In this document: positions 25,343 to 37,096 of the stretch, one piece after another
How the letters are laid out: each line of letters begins with the position of its first letter
How positions within the stretch are numbered: the first letter of the stretch is position 1
NCBI GenBank assembly: GCA_030425285.1
Contig: JAUIAY010000005.1
Location: 107,447-171,446, forward strand
Direction of reading: 5' to 3'
Length of the DNA: 64,000 nucleotides
DNA from: Bacteroidia bacterium
GTDB lineage: Bacteria; Bacteroidota; Bacteroidia; Flavobacteriales; Flavobacteriaceae
Position numbers and translations under genes: made by a program
Notes under the pieces: model-generated
The model's database searches: none
Told to the model about the DNA's origin: nothing
The model's input: the letters and a program-made list of their open reading frames with translations, nothing else

Positions 25343-25372
25343 AAAAAAAAGCTACTGTTTCCAGTAGCTTTT
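25343..25372 (-). terminator. intrinsic terminator after LamG lipoprotein gene
   Basis: AAAAGCTACTG (25347-25357) and CAGTAGCTTTT (25362-25372) form a perfect 11-bp stem with a TTTC loop and eight T on the minus strand, 29 bases after the stop at 25402. Confidence 0.9.
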
Positions 25373-25401: not shown

Positions 25402-27753
25402 TTATAAGCAAGTATGGCAATCTGCTTCTAAATTGTATAAGTCACCTACTTCATTATCGCTTAATGCACGTTTGTAGACTCGTAAATCATCTAAATGACC
25501 CGTAAACCATTGTCCTAGTAAGTAATTACTTAATGGATCAGAATCCACGTTGAAATTAGAATTTTCATCGATATTACGCAATTGTCCGTCTCTATAAAGG
25601 CGAATGGTATTGTTTGAATCTCTAGTTACCACCAAATGGTGCCAGTCGGTGTTATCCCAAACCACATCGACCTCTTGATTCCAATCATTGTCCCAAAGCC
25701 CATAACCGTTGGTTGTATCGCTTACCAAAGGTGTATTTAAATCATAAACACCCAGTTGAAATCCTTCACTAGTTGCTTCTCCTTTTTGAAAAATGGTTTC
25801 AAAATTTCCGGCATCAGTATTTTGCATTTTAAACCAAATACTTACGGAAAAGTTATCACCTTGTACAATTTGATTAAAAGCCGAAACTGGGATAGAGACA
25901 CTTTGTGTACCATCAAAAGCAGTAGCACATGATTCGTTTCCAGCTCTATCGGTAACATAGGTTCCTGTTCCTACGATGACTTCAGCAGAATCGTTCATTA
26001 AATCGTTTGTTTCATTAGAAAACGGTATATAAATTACCAAACCATCAGTCAATATTCCTGGATTATCACAATTAGCACAATCCTGCTCCATAACCATTGT
26101 AATATTACTATTTACAGCTTGCATCACCAATCTATCATCACGGCAATCAACTATTAACCAACTACCTGTAATAGCTTGAATAATTCCTCCATTTACATTA
26201 CTAAATTCCACAATAGTCCCAGAACCCGATTGTGATGTTGACCATGTAGCACTTATTGTCATACCATTGCCAGTTATTTCGACTGTTGAATTTGAAATAA
26301 AATCAAAATCAAACATTATCAATTCATCACTACCTTCATAATCTACAACATTCCAAATGCATTGTTGCAAATAAGTATCGACATCCATTTCAGAGCAGTC
26401 ACTTCCACAGTTTGAAACTATCAATTCCCTTGGTATGATTTGATAATTATTAGGATCACTAACTAACTCAACACGAACATAAATGATTTGATAATTTTGA
26501 TTGTTAATATACTCATATGGATTATCGATAGGGTTAATATTGACTTCAGCATTAGTACTACTTAAATGAAAAGAAATATTATAAATATTGGGGTTAACGC
26601 AATCCTGAAGACCATTTGTCAAATCAAAAATAGCAGTATCATTATTTGGAATATTATCAGAATCATCACAAGAAATTATTTGTGATAAATCATAATAAAT
26701 TGAATTAAAACATTCAAAAGGACTTGTTAGCTCACAATCTTGCTCTAAAACCATCGTGTTCTCATTTCCTGTAGTAGCGTCTGTTTGGGTGAATTGAAAG
26801 ATTTCTTCATCACAACTGTCAATTAACCAAGAGCCGTTTACATCATCAATAAAATTAGAAATAACCAATTCTGGAGAACCTGTATTACTACTTGACATTA
26901 CCCAATTGGCTTCAATAGTTGAAAAATTAGGAGTCGTAACTTGTAGTGAATCATGCCCTTTAAAGTTCAATATATACTCTGACAAATCACTACTATTATT
27001 ATAACTTGTTATATTCCAATAGCACTCTTGTAAGTTTGTCACAACAAATTCTTCGGTGCAATCAGTGTCACAATTCTCATTGGCAGCACTGATAGCTTCT
27101 TCCAGTTCTTGATTATTAGTAACTTCAACTGTATTACCATTTACATAAACAAGAGAGACTGGAAAATTTAAACTAGCCAATACAGCTCCTTGATTATCCG
27201 TTTCCAATCCTTCCAAAAAGATATACAGTTCGTAATCATTATTGACCTCAACCGTATCGATTACCTGAAAATTGGTATTATAAATTGAAAACACCAAAGG
27301 ATAAACAAAATCCACACATTCTATTACGTCTTCATTAGCCACACAACTCTCAATAAAAGCATCTAGTTCTTCTACCGATTCAATGGTTATTTCGGTGTAA
27401 TCGTTCAAAATAATTGTAATGGGAAACAGAAACTCAATAGTATCCTCATTAGTGTTATTTTCATCAAAAATGGCTTCAATTAAACTAAAATCATCTATCG
27501 ATTCGATAGTCAATGTAATACCATTAGCAACAATGGTTACTGGTAAATTCACCGAAAAACAATCGCTACCATCCATGATATTGTCAATCGTTCCATCATT
27601 GGATGATGTGTGCCGCATCAAATTGGCCAAAGTCGAATTTGGCGCAATGGTTTCTTCTTGATTTGGAGGGGTTTCTTCATTAGCTTCTTCTTGACAGGAT
27701 ACGCCAACAAATAGCATCATAAGTAGTAACAAAAGTGATAATCTAAATTTCAT
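25402..27753 (-). CDS. LamG-domain lipoprotein, ECF-regulated
   Basis: 783-residue exported lipoprotein: signal peptide MKFRLSLLLLLMMLFVGVSCQ with lipobox Cys20. The first half contains four related units of about 40-50 residues (NLPVTIVANGITLTIES, FLFPITIILNDYTEITIES, VYPLVFSIYNTNFQVIDT, NFPVSLVYVNGNTVEVT), each followed by an acidic helix. Two longer units of about 110 residues follow, both ending with GSWLI..C and MV(L/M)EQDC. The C-terminal 190 residues are a LamG / concanavalin-A-like domain with NFSVSIWFKMQNTDAG, WHHLVVTRDSNNTIRLYRDG and LDDLRVYKRALSDNEV. Probably a surface binding protein. It is divergent from the sigma gene and carries the same promoter motif as fecR. Confidence 0.85.
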   Translation of the reverse strand: MKFRLSLLLLLMMLFVGVSCQEEANEETPPNQEETIAPNSTLANLMRHTSSNDGTIDNIMDGSDCFSVNLPVTIVANGITLTIESIDDFSLIEAIFDENNTNEDTIEFLFPITIILNDYTEITIESVEELDAFIESCVANEDVIECVDFVYPLVFSIYNTNFQVIDTVEVNNDYELYIFLEGLETDNQGAVLASLNFPVSLVYVNGNTVEVTNNQELEEAISAANENCDTDCTEEFVVTNLQECYWNITSYNNSSDLSEYILNFKGHDSLQVTTPNFSTIEANWVMSSSNTGSPELVISNFIDDVNGSWLIDSCDEEIFQFTQTDATTGNENTMVLEQDCELTSPFECFNSIYYDLSQIISCDDSDNIPNNDTAIFDLTNGLQDCVNPNIYNISFHLSSTNAEVNINPIDNPYEYINNQNYQIIYVRVELVSDPNNYQIIPRELIVSNCGSDCSEMDVDTYLQQCIWNVVDYEGSDELIMFDFDFISNSTVEITGNGMTISATWSTSQSGSGTIVEFSNVNGGIIQAITGSWLIVDCRDDRLVMQAVNSNITMVMEQDCANCDNPGILTDGLVIYIPFSNETNDLMNDSAEVIVGTGTYVTDRAGNESCATAFDGTQSVSIPVSAFNQIVQGDNFSVSIWFKMQNTDAGNFETIFQKGEATSEGFQLGVYDLNTPLVSDTTNGYGLWDNDWNQEVDVVWDNTDWHHLVVTRDSNNTIRLYRDGQLRNIDENSNFNVDSDPLSNYLLGQWFTGHLDDLRVYKRALSDNEVGDLYNLEADCHTCL

Positions 27754-27779: not shown

Positions 27780-27810
27780 ATATAACAGTTGCATTTAAAA
27801 ATGTCCTACC
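27780..27810 (-). promoter_or_regulatory. candidate ECF-sigma promoter of the LamG lipoprotein
   Basis: On the minus strand GGTAGGA (27810-27804), 14 bases, ACTGTTATAT (27789-27780), 26 bases before the lipoprotein start. The same two boxes with the same 14-base spacing lie before fecR on the plus strand. Confidence 0.75.
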
Positions 27811-27854
27811 TCTGTATTTCTTTTTTTATACATTTACGAGCATAAAACCTAAAA

Positions 27855-28370
27855 ATGCCCAAAGATTTAAACAATCATATATGCGATGAAGCCCTGTTTT
27901 CAAAGGCGTTTAATAGCTATGCAAAAGATTTACACGACTTCCTATACTACAAATTTGGCAGTCACATAAATCCGCAGGACAAGGTTCAGGAAGCTTTTGT
28001 GAAACTATGGCAAAAATGTCAGGATGTTGCGCCTTCAAAAGCTAAATCATTTTTATTTACGGTAGCCAATAATTTAACTTTAAACGACTTGGCCCACCAA
28101 AAAGTGGTTTTAAAATTTCAGGAAACCAAACCCAAATCGTCAACATATGAAGATCCAGAATTCCTAATGCAGGAGCAAGAGTATAAATTGAAATTACAAA
28201 ATGCCATTGCCAATTTATCCGAAGCCCAACGCGTAGCTTTTTTAATGAACCGCATTGAAGGCAAAAAACATAAGGAAATAGCCGAAATTCTCAATATCTC
28301 TCAAAAAGCTGTTGAAAAACGTATTTATGGTGCTTTGAAACAATTGCGAAAAGAAATTGACGGTATTTAA
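27855..28370 (+). CDS. ECF-type RNA polymerase sigma factor
   Basis: 171-residue sigma-70 family protein with regions 2 and 4 only. Region 2 covers about residues 14-85 (LHDFLYYKFGSHINPQDKVQEAFVKLWQ split by the usual D-x-x-Q-E-x-F core) and region 4 about 105-165 (LSEAQRVAFLMNRIEGKKHKEIAEILNISQKAVEKRI). It precedes a FecR anti-sigma and a TonB-dependent receptor, the classical cell-surface signalling arrangement. A near-consensus TACATTTA lies at 27829-27836 and may be the house-keeping -7 box. Confidence 0.92.
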   Translation: MPKDLNNHICDEALFSKAFNSYAKDLHDFLYYKFGSHINPQDKVQEAFVKLWQKCQDVAPSKAKSFLFTVANNLTLNDLAHQKVVLKFQETKPKSSTYEDPEFLMQEQEYKLKLQNAIANLSEAQRVAFLMNRIEGKKHKEIAEILNISQKAVEKRIYGALKQLRKEIDGI

Positions 28371-28379
28371 AAATATTAA

Positions 28380-28410
28380 GGTAGGAGAATTTAAGACATA
28401 ACTGTTATAT
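28380..28410 (+). promoter_or_regulatory. candidate ECF-sigma promoter of fecR and receptor
   Basis: GGTAGGA (28380-28386), 14 bases, ACTGTTATAT (28401-28410), ending 17 bases before the fecR start. It is identical in boxes and spacing to the site at 27780-27810 on the other strand, while the 14-base spacers differ. Confidence 0.75.
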
Positions 28411-28427: not shown

Positions 28428-29330
28428 ATGGACAGAGAGTATTTAATAAAAAAATGGTTGGATCACGACTTGAATGCTGAAGAACTCAAGGCATTTAAGG
28501 CTTTGGATGATTATAACGAACTCACAAAATTATCGCGTTCCCTAGAAGATTTCAAGGCTCCAAATTTTGATGACAAGGCTGTTTATGACCATATTCAAAA
28601 ACGTATTGCTGAAGAAAAAGTCAGTTCCTCTAAAACACAATGGTTTAAACCATTTTTACGAATTGCTGCTGTGATAGTGGTTGTTCTATCTGTTTATTAT
28701 TACAACGCAACTATTGATACAACAACGCAAACACTTTTAGCTGAAAAAACAGAAATCAGTTTACCCGACCAAACCAAAGTGAGTCTGAATGCTGAATCTA
28801 GCCTGACTTACAACAAAAGTAAATGGCAATCCAATCGCGATGTTAATTTAGATGGTGAGGCTTTCTTTGATGTAGAAAAAGGCTCGGAATTCAATGTAAT
28901 TACAAACAACGGAACCGTTACTGTTTTAGGAACAGAATTTAATGTTAATAATAGACCAGACTTTTTTGAAACCGTTTGCTATGAAGGTTCCGTAAAAGTT
29001 GTCACTACTTCAGAAACAAAAATTTTAAAACCTGGCGATAGGTTTTTAATGATTGATGGGAAATATATTGCTCAAGAAAAAGAAAAAAACACACAACCTA
29101 GCTGGTTGCAAAATGAAAGTTATTTTAAGAGTATTCCTTACAAGTATGTTCTGGATGAGTTTGAACGTCAGTATCAGGTGACATTCAAATCTGATGTTAT
29201 TGACAGCAACACACTTTACACAGGAAGTTTTGTACACAATAACAAAGAATTGGCACTAAAAGCCATTACATTACCTCTAAACATTAACTTTACCATTAAA
29301 AATAATGTGATTGTACTATATCGTGAATAG
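28428..29330 (+). CDS. FecR family anti-sigma factor
   Basis: 300 residues with the FecR plan: a short cytoplasmic N-terminal part (1-78) that would bind the sigma factor, one membrane helix (about 79-95, FLRIAAVIVVVLSVYYY), then the periplasmic FecR domain (EISLPDQTKVSLNAESSLTYN, GEAFFDVEKGSEFNVITNNGTVTVLGTEFNV in pieces, about 107-175) and the C-terminal DUF4974-like STN-related domain (SIPYKYVLDEFERQYQVTFKS). It transmits the receptor state to the sigma factor. The next gene starts within its last codons. Confidence 0.92.
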   Translation: MDREYLIKKWLDHDLNAEELKAFKALDDYNELTKLSRSLEDFKAPNFDDKAVYDHIQKRIAEEKVSSSKTQWFKPFLRIAAVIVVVLSVYYYNATIDTTTQTLLAEKTEISLPDQTKVSLNAESSLTYNKSKWQSNRDVNLDGEAFFDVEKGSEFNVITNNGTVTVLGTEFNVNNRPDFFETVCYEGSVKVVTTSETKILKPGDRFLMIDGKYIAQEKEKNTQPSWLQNESYFKSIPYKYVLDEFERQYQVTFKSDVIDSNTLYTGSFVHNNKELALKAITLPLNINFTIKNNVIVLYRE

Positions 29331-31611
29331 TAGTATAAAAACCATAATTTTTAGCGGGTTGCTTATCCTGAATAGCTTTTTAGTTGCGGCACAAAATCAA
29401 ACCGACCAAAAGCAGCCGCTATCTGATGCCCTGGAACAAATATCCCAAAGACATCAAGTACGCTTTTCTTATGCCGATGAATCTTTGGAAGGCAAAACCA
29501 TAACATTGCCTGATGAAAACCTAACGCTTGAAGCTCTACTTAATTATTTACAAACAGAAACCAAGCTTGTTTTTCAGGAAATCAGTCCGAAAAACTACGT
29601 AATCAGAAACCCAATTTCTCAAACCCAATTTTTAGACGAAGTACTAATCACTAAATACCTCACCGAAGGTATTTCATTACAAACAGATGGAACCTCTAAA
29701 ATTAATTTGGATGAATTTGGTATTCTACCAGGCTTAATAGAACCTGACGTCCTACAGACTATACAAGCGCTACCAGGTATAATTAGTGTTGACGAACGTG
29801 TATCCAACCTGAACATTCGTGGTGGTACCAATGACCAAAACTTAATTTTATGGGATGGTATCAAAATGTACCAATCGGGACATTTTTTTGGATTGATTTC
29901 AGCGTTCAATCCATCTCTGATTCATGATATTTCTATTTCAAAAAATGGCAGCAGTGCACAATATGGTGATGGTGTTTCTGGAATCATCGATATGCACAGT
30001 TCCGATCAAATAAATACAAAAATACAAGGTGGTTTAGGCAGCAATCTTATTGCTGCCGATGGGTTTGCCAAAATTCCTATTGGCAAAAAAATTGGTTTTC
30101 AAGTTTCGGCCAGACGTTCATTGACCAATGTATTCAACACACCTACCTACAACCAATATTTCGACCGTATTTTTCAGGATTCCGATTTAACACAACAATC
30201 CAACGAGCGTGTCACCCAAGATGAACGTTTTTACTTTTATGATGTTTCTTCGAAACTTATATATAAGCCTTCTGACAAAGACCAATTAACCGTTAGTGGA
30301 CTAAAAATATTTAATTCACTGGACTATAGAGAAACAGCTATTGACAACAACCAATCATCAACCAGTAAACTCGTACAAGAAAGTATGGCTGCCAGTATAA
30401 CCTATCAGCGACAATGGCATTCCAGGTTTCAAACAACGATCAAGGCTTCCATGTCCAACTACGATTTAAACTCAAAAAATAATGATATTGGCAATGACCA
30501 ACAGTTGATACAAGAAAATAATGTTCGTGACAATCGGTTTGAATTGCAAGCCAATTATCAGATTAATCAAAATTTGAATTATTTGGGTGGCTACCAATAT
30601 GCAGAAATCGGCATGAGCAATTTAGAAGATGTCAATAATCCTGAATACAGACGATACATCAAAGACGTTTTACGCTCCCACGGACTTTACAACGAGGTTA
30701 GCTTTAAGTCGAATTCAGGAAACTCGTATGCAAGATTAGGGTTACGAGCCAATTACATTGAGCAATTCTCCGATTTCTTTTTGGAACCGCGCTTTGTCTT
30801 TAATCAAAAACTATCCAAGAACTTTAGAGTTGAACTACTTGTGGAATTAAAAAGCCAAACCGCTTCACAAATTATAGATCTACAGGATGACTTTTTGGGT
30901 GTTGAAAAAAGGCGTTGGATTCTATCAAACAATAACGACATTCCCATAATTCAAAGTCAGCAATTGTCGTTGGGTGGTCATTACCAAAAGAAATCACTTT
31001 TGGTCAGTTTGGAAGGCTACATCAAACACGTTGATGGCATCACATCACGAAGTCAAGGATTTCAAAATCAGTACCAGTATACCGATGTAAGTGGTTCATA
31101 TCGCATAACTGGATTGGATTTTTTAATCAACCAACAATTTGATAATTGGAGTGCCTGGTTAAGCTATTCATTAAGTAAGAATGATTACACTTTTGATGAT
31201 CTTAACGATGGAAACCAATTTCCGAATAACATAGACATTAGACATCAGGTAACATTTGCAGGCACCTACAGCATCAATAATCTAAAACTGGCATTGGGAT
31301 TCAATTGGCATTCTGGGAGACCTACAACCTATTATGATATGTCCAATCCAATTTCTGCAGGTGACATTAATTATTTAGAGCCCAATGGCTCAAACCTTTC
31401 CAGTTATTTTAGGACAGATTGCTCGGCGACCTATAAGTTTAAGATTGCAAAAAATTGGCAAGCACACATTGGTGCCTCTTTATGGAATATCTTCAACACC
31501 AAAAACACCATTAACCGTTACTACCGCATAACAGACCAAAATACTGTTTCAGAAATTAACACCAAGTCTTTGGGCATCACGCCCAACCTGACTTTTAGGG
31601 TGAGTTTTTAA
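29323..31611 (+). CDS. TonB-dependent outer membrane receptor (signal-transducing type)
   Basis: About 762 residues. Signal peptide (SIKTIIFSGLLILNSFLVAAQ), an N-terminal STN-like signalling domain (LSDALEQISQRHQVRFSYADES ... about 25-95), then plug (DVLQTIQALPGIISVDERVSNLNIRGG, YQSGHFFGLISAFNP) and a 22-strand-type barrel ending in the terminal aromatic NLTFRVSF. The STN domain and the upstream sigma / FecR genes mark it as a transducer that senses its substrate. No SusD partner is present; the co-regulated LamG lipoprotein may take that role. Start: no ATG fits; GTG at 29323, overlapping the fecR stop, gives a clean signal peptide, while an alternative TTG lies at 29311. Confidence 0.88.
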   Translation: MNSSIKTIIFSGLLILNSFLVAAQNQTDQKQPLSDALEQISQRHQVRFSYADESLEGKTITLPDENLTLEALLNYLQTETKLVFQEISPKNYVIRNPISQTQFLDEVLITKYLTEGISLQTDGTSKINLDEFGILPGLIEPDVLQTIQALPGIISVDERVSNLNIRGGTNDQNLILWDGIKMYQSGHFFGLISAFNPSLIHDISISKNGSSAQYGDGVSGIIDMHSSDQINTKIQGGLGSNLIAADGFAKIPIGKKIGFQVSARRSLTNVFNTPTYNQYFDRIFQDSDLTQQSNERVTQDERFYFYDVSSKLIYKPSDKDQLTVSGLKIFNSLDYRETAIDNNQSSTSKLVQESMAASITYQRQWHSRFQTTIKASMSNYDLNSKNNDIGNDQQLIQENNVRDNRFELQANYQINQNLNYLGGYQYAEIGMSNLEDVNNPEYRRYIKDVLRSHGLYNEVSFKSNSGNSYARLGLRANYIEQFSDFFLEPRFVFNQKLSKNFRVELLVELKSQTASQIIDLQDDFLGVEKRRWILSNNNDIPIIQSQQLSLGGHYQKKSLLVSLEGYIKHVDGITSRSQGFQNQYQYTDVSGSYRITGLDFLINQQFDNWSAWLSYSLSKNDYTFDDLNDGNQFPNNIDIRHQVTFAGTYSINNLKLALGFNWHSGRPTTYYDMSNPISAGDINYLEPNGSNLSSYFRTDCSATYKFKIAKNWQAHIGASLWNIFNTKNTINRYYRITDQNTVSEINTKSLGITPNLTFRVSF

Positions 31612-31614
31612 GAT

Positions 31615-32088
31615 TTATATTTTTTCAAATACCAGTTCGTCGGTACCATCATTGGTCAGCTCAATCCTAGAATCTGTATAAGATTCAACATGCCAATCAT
31701 CAGATAGTTCTTCATAATTAGGTGGCGAATCAAATCCTAAATTGAAATTAACACCATCATTATTGGAGTTCGGAGCTACCAACCAAATACCATTATGTGT
31801 ATCAATACCATCAGAAGCAGCCACAGTTCCTTGTGCATTAAACACAAAGCCAAAAGTGGTATAATTGCTAGTTTCCTCATGGTCAGTATCAAAATAAAAT
31901 GCCACACGCCATGAGTTTTGTTGCATAAGAGCCTTTACCTGTTGCACTTGTACAGCCACATTATTACCACCAGAACCGCCTCCGCTTCCGTCGTCTCCAG
32001 TTGAATTATCGTCAGAACCTGAACAAGAACCCAGAACAAACAATAAGGATAAGAATAATATGTTTGTATGAGAAATAAGATGTTTCAT
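31615..32088 (-). CDS. hypothetical lipoprotein
   Basis: 157 residues with signal peptide and lipobox (LLFVLGSCSG, Cys near residue 22), followed by a Ser/Gly/Asp-rich spacer (SDDNSTGDDGSGGGSGG) typical of surface-exposed Bacteroidota lipoproteins. The rest reads WRVAFYFDTDHEETSNYTTFGFVFNAQGTV and GIWLV, a small beta-rich domain resembling the repeated unit WNI..Y..W of the LamG lipoprotein at 25402-27753; the resemblance is weak. It converges on the receptor gene with a 3-base gap. Confidence 0.75.
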   Translation of the reverse strand: MKHLISHTNILFLSLLFVLGSCSGSDDNSTGDDGSGGGSGGNNVAVQVQQVKALMQQNSWRVAFYFDTDHEETSNYTTFGFVFNAQGTVAASDGIDTHNGIWLVAPNSNNDGVNFNLGFDSPPNYEELSDDWHVESYTDSRIELTNDGTDELVFEKI

Positions 32089-35900: not shown

Positions 35901-35943
35901 CTATTTTATAATGAGCAGTAAAGATTATTATAATGCATTTACG

Positions 35944-35951
35944 TAACTTTG
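35944..35951 (+). promoter_or_regulatory. putative -7 box of the GH53 gene
   Basis: TAACTTTG, matching TAnnTTTG, lies 11 bases before the ATG at 35963 and downstream of the alternative start at 35933, which supports 35963 as the real start. Confidence 0.45.
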
Positions 35952-35962
35952 AAAGCACTATC

Positions 35963-37096
35963 ATGAAATACTCAATACACGTATTATTCCTTTTTATAGT
36001 CCTTGTTTCTTGCCAATCATCTGATGAAACGCATGACATTACTGTAGACCCAGAAAACAACAGCATATTTTATAAAGGAATGGATTTATCATTTCAATCA
36101 GAATTGGAAAACTACAATTTGAACTATAAAGACAGTTCAGGAAACCCTATAGACCTTTTGGATTTTGTATCATCGCAAGGTGTCAATTTAATTCGGTTAA
36201 GGTTGTGGCACACACCACAAAATAGACAAAACAGTCTTCAAGATGTCAAAGCTTATGCGCTACGTGCAAAGACTAAAAACATGGATTGGCTACTTGATAT
36301 GCACTACTCCGATTTTTGGGCTGATCCAGCAACACAAACGCCTCCAAGTGCTTGGGCAGGCATGACTTTTTTAGAGGTTAGAGATGCTGTATACAATTAT
36401 ACTAGGTCCGTTGTACAAGAACTTAACAATGCGAATGCCCTACCAAAAATCATTCAAATTGGTAACGAAACCGACAGTGGGTTTTTATGGGATTACGGCC
36501 GTGTTTGGGATGATTTTTCGGATAACTGGGAGAATTACAGTATTTTGGTTAATGAAGCCATTAGAGCCATTAGAGAAGTTGACACCAATGGCAACATAAA
36601 AATCATGCTTCATCACTCTAGTGTTGAAAATGCAATTTATTTTTTTGACGAGTTAAATGATTTTAATTTGAACTTTGACATCATTGGTTTATCCTATTAT
36701 CCGCAGTTCCAGACCAGGAACTTAAACTTAATACAACAAAAGATTTCAGAATTAGCCACTCGTTTCAACAAAGATATAATGATAGCAGAAACTGCTTATC
36801 CGTTTACTTTGGATTGGAATGATAACACTACAAATTTTATTGGTGATAATTCTCAAATTTTACAGGAATTCCCTCCCACACCCAATGGGCAAAAATTATA
36901 TTTGGATTGGATCGCTCAAACTATCAAAAACATTCCAAACGAACACGGATTGGGTTTTTGTTATTGGGCACCAGATTGGGTAGCTTTTTCAGGCAACGAA
37001 TCTACATCAACAGGTGGTAGTTCGTGGGAAAATCAGTGTACATTTGACTTTGACCATAAAGCGTTACCTATATTTAACGCCTTTAAAAATAATTGA
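35963..37096 (+). CDS. arabinogalactan endo-beta-1,4-galactanase, GH53 lipoprotein
   Basis: About 377 residues after choosing the start MKYSIH. Signal peptide with lipobox (FIVLVSCQSS), so an exported lipoprotein. The GH53 fold is marked by FYKGMDLSFQSELE, GVNLIRLRLWHTP, LLDMHYSDFWADP, the acid/base Glu in QIGNETDSGFLW and the nucleophile Glu in MIAETAYPFTLDW. It cleaves beta-1,4-galactan of plant or algal pectic side chains. No SusC/SusD or other glycosidase is next to it, so it is not part of a visible polysaccharide locus. Divergent from argS, separated by 89 bases. Confidence 0.93.
   Translation: MKYSIHVLFLFIVLVSCQSSDETHDITVDPENNSIFYKGMDLSFQSELENYNLNYKDSSGNPIDLLDFVSSQGVNLIRLRLWHTPQNRQNSLQDVKAYALRAKTKNMDWLLDMHYSDFWADPATQTPPSAWAGMTFLEVRDAVYNYTRSVVQELNNANALPKIIQIGNETDSGFLWDYGRVWDDFSDNWENYSILVNEAIRAIREVDTNGNIKIMLHHSSVENAIYFFDELNDFNLNFDIIGLSYYPQFQTRNLNLIQQKISELATRFNKDIMIAETAYPFTLDWNDNTTNFIGDNSQILQEFPPTPNGQKLYLDWIAQTIKNIPNEHGLGFCYWAPDWVAFSGNESTSTGGSSWENQCTFDFDHKALPIFNAFKNN

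Follow-up and report, generated by a model that had tools for sequence, protein, structure and literature searches.

The window, a stretch of 64,000 nucleotides from a marine bacterium, contains a locus in which a gene for an ECF sigma factor is followed by genes for a FecR-type regulator and a TonB-dependent receptor, with a predicted lipoprotein gene on the opposite strand. The features of the locus are as follows.

25343..25370, minus strand: hairpin and T run resembling an intrinsic terminator, 3' of the lipoprotein gene (AAGCTACTG-GAAA-CAGTAGCTT, then T)
25402..27753, minus strand: predicted lipoprotein gene, 783 aa (signal peptide and Cys20 recognised by eye)
27780..27810, minus strand: predicted ECF sigma promoter of the lipoprotein gene (GGTAGGA, N14, ACTGTTATAT), kept in relatives
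27829..27836, plus strand: TACATTTA, an imperfect match to the housekeeping-sigma -7 box TAnnTTTG, before the sigma gene
27855..28370, plus strand: ECF sigma factor gene, 171 aa, recognition helix ISQKAVEKRIYGAL
28380..28410, plus strand: predicted ECF sigma promoter of the fecR-receptor operon (GGTAGGA, N14, ACTGTTATAT)
28428..29330, plus strand: FecR-type anti-sigma factor or sigma regulator gene, 300 aa (Pfam FecR and FecR_C above cut-off)
29311..31611, plus strand: TonB-dependent receptor gene, 766 aa (Pfam Plug above cut-off)
31615..32088, minus strand: small predicted lipoprotein gene, 157 aa, beyond the receptor

The sigma factor matched Sigma70_r2 and Sigma70_r4_2 above cut-off, an ECF architecture with regions 2 and 4 only, and the product of the adjoining fecR gene matched PF04773 and PF16344 above cut-off. 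The N-terminus of the receptor (residues 34-98) resembles a signalling domain, although its FecR_C score of 24.3 bits falls 0.1 bit short of the 24.4 cut-off. The 157-aa lipoprotein is weakly related to the C-terminal modules of the large lipoprotein family (best E 5e-5), and a window search allowing up to three mismatches found no matching promoter before its gene; a similar-looking small lipoprotein gene follows the divergent lipoprotein gene at two related loci (L072 and L073). A predicted secreted GH53 galactanase is encoded 4.3 kb beyond the receptor at 35933-37096 on the plus strand (Pfam Glyco_hydro_53, 324.7 bits), and the window search found no site of the GGTAGGA motif before it.

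The original prediction, made from the letters of the window, was that two identical pairs of boxes with a 14-base gap flank the sigma gene, and it was exact in its sequences, coordinates and distances. GGTAGGA-N14-ACTGTTATAT occurs without mismatch at 27780-27810 on the minus strand, 26 bases from the start codon of the lipoprotein gene, and at 28380-28410 on the plus strand, 17 bases from that of fecR. When up to three mismatches were allowed, these were the only two matches in the window, compared to a mean of 0.24 in shuffled windows, with two or more matches in 5 of 100 shuffles. The motif is likewise not common at random sites in the host genome (3,118,191 bases in 16 contigs), which holds the two perfect matches, none with one or two mismatches and nine with three; the reversed pattern, used as a control, gave a similar 10 matches at up to three mismatches. 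The looser pattern GGTAGGR-N16-TGTTNTA added a third match in the host genome, inside a reading frame of 680 residues. Because this remaining match lies in a reading frame, the host regulon defined by this pattern consists of the two promoters.

Relatives of the sigma factor, many of them distant, were found in 51 of 60 related genomes. The 40 regions around closer relatives were taken first; 39 contained relatives of fecR and the receptor and 32 a relative of the lipoprotein, among the matches listed, and many had related sites before both genes. A larger set comprised 80 loci with named records, of which 79 were scored after one (L174) was dropped for a stop in the sigma gene, and loci cut by contig ends were counted as misses. 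In the wider search, the strict pattern GTAGGR-N16-TGTTNTA was present after the sigma gene in 70 of the 79 loci, before it in 61 and on both sides in 56, so that the predicted occurrence of the motif before both fecR and the lipoprotein gene extends to most related loci. Within 200 bases it was found after the sigma gene in 68 of 79 and divergently before it in 60 of 79, whereas shuffles gave 0.0 and 0.0 and opposite-strand controls 0/79 and 0/79.

Many of the 23 loci missing one or both strict sites carry, by inspection, a site that is one or two bases off; in a few others, a contig end or masked bases interrupt the sequence. The inspected stretch contained no site after the sigma gene in L141, L157 and L192, or before it in L196. 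By eye, L078 and L081 retain GTAGGG in the divergent promoter but carry TGTCTTA instead of TGTTATA, as L078 does before fecR as well; this is a possible variant of the -10 box. The omitted locus L174 has in-frame stops in both the sigma frame and the lipoprotein N-terminal frame, and is either a decayed copy or a sequence error.

Since none of the 79 loci has a strict site reading into the sigma gene, this gene appears to lack a promoter of this motif of its own. The sequence TAnnTTTR occurs within 50 bases before the sigma gene in 36 of 79 loci, compared to 10.4 in shuffles, and exact TAnnTTTG in 6 of 79, compared to 1.2. These counts give a weak hint that a housekeeping promoter might drive the sigma gene.

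The -35 box differs among relatives together with one residue of the sigma recognition helix. We pooled 178 entries with 163 non-identical sigma proteins and added six His-class loci, for 169 loci in all. The class of the downstream site matched the helix residue in all 155 loci with a site: GTAGGR in 121 of 121 with Lys, T[CA]AGGR in 28 of 28 with Tyr (TCAGGR in 24, TAAGGA in 4) and [CT]TGGGA in 6 of 6 with His (TTGGGA in 3, CTGGGA in 3), the last class being defined post hoc, with its downstream pattern read from the same loci and the six upstream entries made by hand. Fourteen pooled loci had no downstream site under these patterns. On the divergent side, the counts were 120 of 120 for Lys, 26 of 26 for Tyr and 6 of 6 for His, with one Arg locus carrying ATAGGG; here the Lys class was defined as NTAGGR and takes in two CTAGGR, two TTAGGA and the ATAGGG found with Arg. 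The two promoters of a locus were of equal -35 class in all 145 loci with both sites and had the same hexamer in 127. Six of the 169 loci had neither site under the patterns and 18 had one; the His locus L229 was scored as siteless, yet has TTGGGA on both sides in its sequence.

With the helix columns excluded from the tree, the -35 class shifts twice and the residue three times, and the test of independent pairs for this residue yielded a single pair. The match between helix and -35 box is thus perfect but rests on few evolutionary events. At a second helix position, agreement with the last base of GTAGGR holds in 115 of 121 loci: Tyr goes with A in 87 of 91, and the remaining residues go with G in 28 of 30. 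We do not regard this additional association as established, because the residue at this position differed in none or one of four independent pairs. We did not accept the independent-pair tests as proof of co-variation, as they contain too few events. In our alignment by eye, the helix residue that goes with the -35 class falls at T171 of SigW and S172 of sigma-E, the residue that contacts base -34 in crystal structures (PMC6713349). L266-L270, L273 and L229 represent another paralogue class, whose helix reads EHRIY and whose promoters on either side of the sigma gene carry TTGGGA, except that three of these loci have CTGGGA after the sigma gene; at L266-L270 and L273, this class is predicted to drive a lipoprotein of ~600 aa.

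Together, these data make it very likely that the sigma factor of this sigma/FecR/TonB-receptor locus transcribes two matched flanking promoters, those of the fecR-receptor operon and of the divergent predicted lipoprotein. The proposal that the boxes are promoters read by the intervening ECF sigma factor is supported by their conservation, strand and spacing and by their co-variation with the helix. Because both signals change together, in step with the helix, the sigma factor likely switches on both sets of genes. We infer the following course of signalling. A ligand would bind the receptor, whose N-terminal signalling domain would act on FecR, and FecR would then free the sigma factor. Region 4 of sigma would read GTAGGA and region 2 TGTTATA at both promoters, and output of the receptor, FecR and the predicted surface lipoprotein would rise. 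FecR lies inside the predicted induced operon and its induction would give negative feedback, while the sigma gene itself would be transcribed separately, without a motif of its own.

Other explanations for the paired boxes account for less of the evidence. Two identical boxes at a fixed spacing before two genes would also fit paired operators of a separate repressor or activator. This is very improbable: the order of the boxes and the 16-base gap correspond to -35 and -10 elements relative to each gene, the class of the boxes tracks the intervening sigma factor's recognition helix, and no other regulator gene adjoining sigma was noticed by eye among the gene maps listed. The sites could instead be promoters used mainly by another ECF sigma factor of the genome, with the neighbouring one a coincidence. 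The host genome does contain other, distant relatives of the sigma factor, with eight matches to the sigma query and the next best at 25% identity among the matches listed. We consider this about as improbable, as class and helix correspond at each locus even in genomes with two paralogues, and the pattern follows the sigma factor across genomes: 15 genomes with it hold 39 perfect matches to GGTAGGR-N16-TGTTNTA, 27 of them at the locus (reversed control 5), whereas 14 genomes of the family without the sigma clade hold 3, near the control of 2.

The 17 identical bases within one window might also suggest functionless sites that arose by chance or by a recent duplication. Both are negligible as explanations. 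A chance origin of the box pair is ruled out by the window and genome counts and by the shuffles, which gave 0 in relatives, and the sites are conserved across many genera. The spacers are unlike, as the original prediction had pointed out in arguing against mere duplication; across 139 loci, the 16-base spacers are 52% identical within a locus, compared to 45% for random pairs. Because the spacers differ, the sites are no copied block.

The divergent gene encodes a lipoprotein whose conserved part is its N-terminal domain. This domain (approximately residues 65-228) has four beta-beta-beta-alpha repeats in the predicted structure, with a pTM of 0.72 and a pLDDT mostly above 80 over residues 41-220. 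We read lipocalin-like modules and an Ig-like module in the model of the protein. A LamG domain at the C-terminus (residues 615-769) is the sole Pfam domain of the protein, and the gene had been described as encoding a LamG lipoprotein. That label is misleading: LamG appears in 23 of 120 listed homologues (350 were found), and the N-terminal part is what the homologues share. We rejected LamG as the key feature because of its rarity among the homologues shown and the conservation of the N-terminal domain. Among the matches listed, the closest named relative is a protein of Hanstruepera ponticola (95% over the N-terminal part), which makes Hanstruepera the probable genus of the window. A structure search with the N-terminal domain alone gave no PDB fold match at E<=0.001. 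With the whole lipoprotein, the best 50 rows were mainly concanavalin-A-like lectin folds, which we take to reflect the LamG end; this is a generic fold, some of the matches being to binding domains of unrelated toxins, and we assign no function from it. An acidic stretch after the lipoprotein Cys is a lipoprotein-export signal. Such a stretch in the 783-aa protein suggests that it is exposed on the surface.

The description of the lipoprotein as an output of the system is supported by sequence. It had also been suggested that the lipoprotein acts as a co-receptor in place of SusD, that is, as a lid of the TonB-dependent receptor, a role that we find possible but doubtful. It would suit a conserved divergent neighbour (the N-terminal domain was found in 64 of 80 loci) that is a predicted lipoprotein and has a promoter of the same class as the fecR side. 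Against it, the protein contains no SusD domain, its N-terminal domain lacks a solved counterpart as noted, and eleven loci keep the sigma gene without a lipoprotein gene. Ten of these eleven keep the site before fecR and the eleventh (L175) is cut by a contig end. Since the domain is absent from 16 of 80 loci, in eleven of which ffh directly adjoins sigma on the divergent side, a SusD-like co-receptor role does not look obligatory.

Loci without the lipoprotein gene point to a second possible type of output. One of the eleven with ffh (L196) lacks both the lipoprotein gene and the divergent site. The other ten (L151, L153, L160, L161, L164, L171, L175, L177, L194 and L198) have kept the promoter without the gene, as GTAGGR-N16-TGTTNTA in nine and with GTAGGT in L160. 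The promoter is followed by a conserved stretch containing no gene, of 91-96 bases in eight loci and 161 and 171 bases in two, that ends in a hairpin and T run in all ten. The ten loci thus have the order of promoter, stretch and terminator that we looked for in a sigma-dependent sRNA. The core GTTAGTTTTAGTTTTTAGTTGG is identical in seven loci and recognisable in the other three. In L131, where the lipoprotein gene is present, most of this core sits in the 3' region of that gene, and the stretch therefore looks like a left-over lipoprotein 3' region. Eight of the stretches align at 86% mean identity, with the terminator stem kept in all eight; double changes occur in three predicted pairs, of which just one belongs to the terminator stem, and the covariation term, at -0.25, is small. 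Rfam gave no match for the four loci tried, of which two (L153 and L177) are of the sRNA type. We regard the stretch as a candidate: a left-over 3' region that was kept and is possibly used as a sigma-driven sRNA. It might also have been retained merely by descent within one lineage.

Relocation of the lipoprotein with its GTAGGR promoter in Psychroserpens-like genomes was ruled out for the relatives checked. Relatives of ~600 aa in six such genomes lie at another sigma locus, with TTGGGA promoters.

The pattern also has matches beyond the locus. Nine of the 12 off-locus matches in the 15 genomes with the sigma factor were inspected: five lie before genes for secreted proteins (L112, L113, L115, L116 and L117), three inside reading frames, including that of the host genome, and one in an intergenic position (L123). 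Ten Psychroserpens-like genomes, seven of whose records are named Psychroserpens, contain 50 matches to the GGTAGGR pattern (control 0), 17 of them at the locus. Of the 30 such matches inspected, 7 precede fecR, 6 coincide with the former lipoprotein promoter and 6 precede a secreted protein of 153-158 aa, whose family also occurs in L116 and L117; large secreted proteins account for 5, a 61-66 aa peptide for 4, and the other 2 fall outside these groups. A conserved secreted protein of 153-161 aa with a GGTAGGR promoter ~89-98 bases upstream was seen in several genera (L283, L286, L290, L292, L294, L307, L116 and L117). The conserved 61-66 aa peptide ends in LAPTGS and has its GGTAGGR promoter 130-143 bases upstream (L296, L302, L309 and L310).

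Matches to TCAGGA, the pattern of the Tyr class, are noisier than those to GGTAGGR: of 50 across 29 genomes, 13 by our count lie at Tyr-class sigma loci and 14 in genomes without a Tyr-class sigma factor, against a reversed control of 10. The host genome has two TCAGGA-N16-TGTTATA sites, at G000:C7:48945-48973 (L349) and G000:C16:52508-52536 (L350), which precede lipoprotein-like genes of 62 aa and 225 aa; the TCAGGA-type site of the latter is kept in four other genomes of the genus. Despite these two sites, no Tyr-class sigma factor was found in the host genome, and either the sigma factor was lost or it falls in an assembly gap.

A tentative reading of these observations is that in the Psychroserpens lineage the output of the locus switched from a protein to a conserved sRNA that tunes surface-protein mRNAs, while the regulon grew. 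The lipoprotein gene would have been deleted between its promoter and 3' end, leaving a sigma promoter that would now yield GUUAGUUUUAGUUUUUAGUUGG and a terminator. This sRNA would tune the mRNAs of surface proteins as the sigma-E sRNAs of E. coli do, and the sigma regulon would have extended to secreted proteins elsewhere in the genome. Three -35 codes, GTAGGR, TCAGGA and TTGGGA, set by one helix residue, would keep the paralogous switches apart.

These loci provide a natural series of sigma factors with paired promoters. Within it, a helix residue and the -35 specificity of both sites of a locus changed in concert, so that specificity rules can be read and tested. The motif and its class could serve as a sequence handle for the regulons of paralogous surface-signalling switches in Flavobacteriaceae, and the promoter that was kept after loss of the protein may drive an ECF-dependent sRNA in Bacteroidota.

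Loci that combine an ECF sigma factor, FecR and SusC-SusD occur in Bacteroidetes. The locus described here shares with them the phylum and the order sigma-FecR-receptor. Unlike in those loci, the Pfam scan of 17 window proteins revealed no SusD family, and the divergent lipoprotein has another N-terminal domain, without a solved relative. The sigma-E sRNAs MicA, RybB and MicL of E. coli are ECF-driven short RNAs with a terminator, one of which derives from a 3' end. The candidate sRNA resembles them in its ECF promoter, short stretch and terminator, and differs in being known from sequence alone, at ten Psychroserpens-like loci. We found no description of the motif or of the lipoprotein pair in the titles and openings of abstracts covered. 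A predicted ECF promoter class in Flavobacterium psychrophilum, SM6, drives T9SS genes and has a CGT -10 box (PMC9723704). It too is a flavobacterial ECF-type promoter class inferred from sequence; the -10 box at the present locus is TGTTATA instead.

A close parallel is the E. coli Fec system, in which sigma-70 controls fecIR, FecI controls fecA, and fecIR is not autoregulated (PMC9249621). Like FecI-FecR-FecA, the locus combines an ECF sigma factor with a FecR-type regulator and a receptor of the TonB-dependent kind; judged by sequence, its sigma gene is not under its own promoter, and its receptor gene is predicted to be sigma-dependent. Unlike in Fec, a predicted promoter lies between sigma and fecR, so that FecR itself would be induced, the divergent lipoprotein gene is a second predicted target with a matched site, and no iron-transport genes were noticed among the neighbours scanned. 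We read the locus as a variant of the FecI/FecR/TonB-receptor switch in which the sigma factor would serve both the fecR-receptor operon and the divergent lipoprotein gene, though not its own gene.
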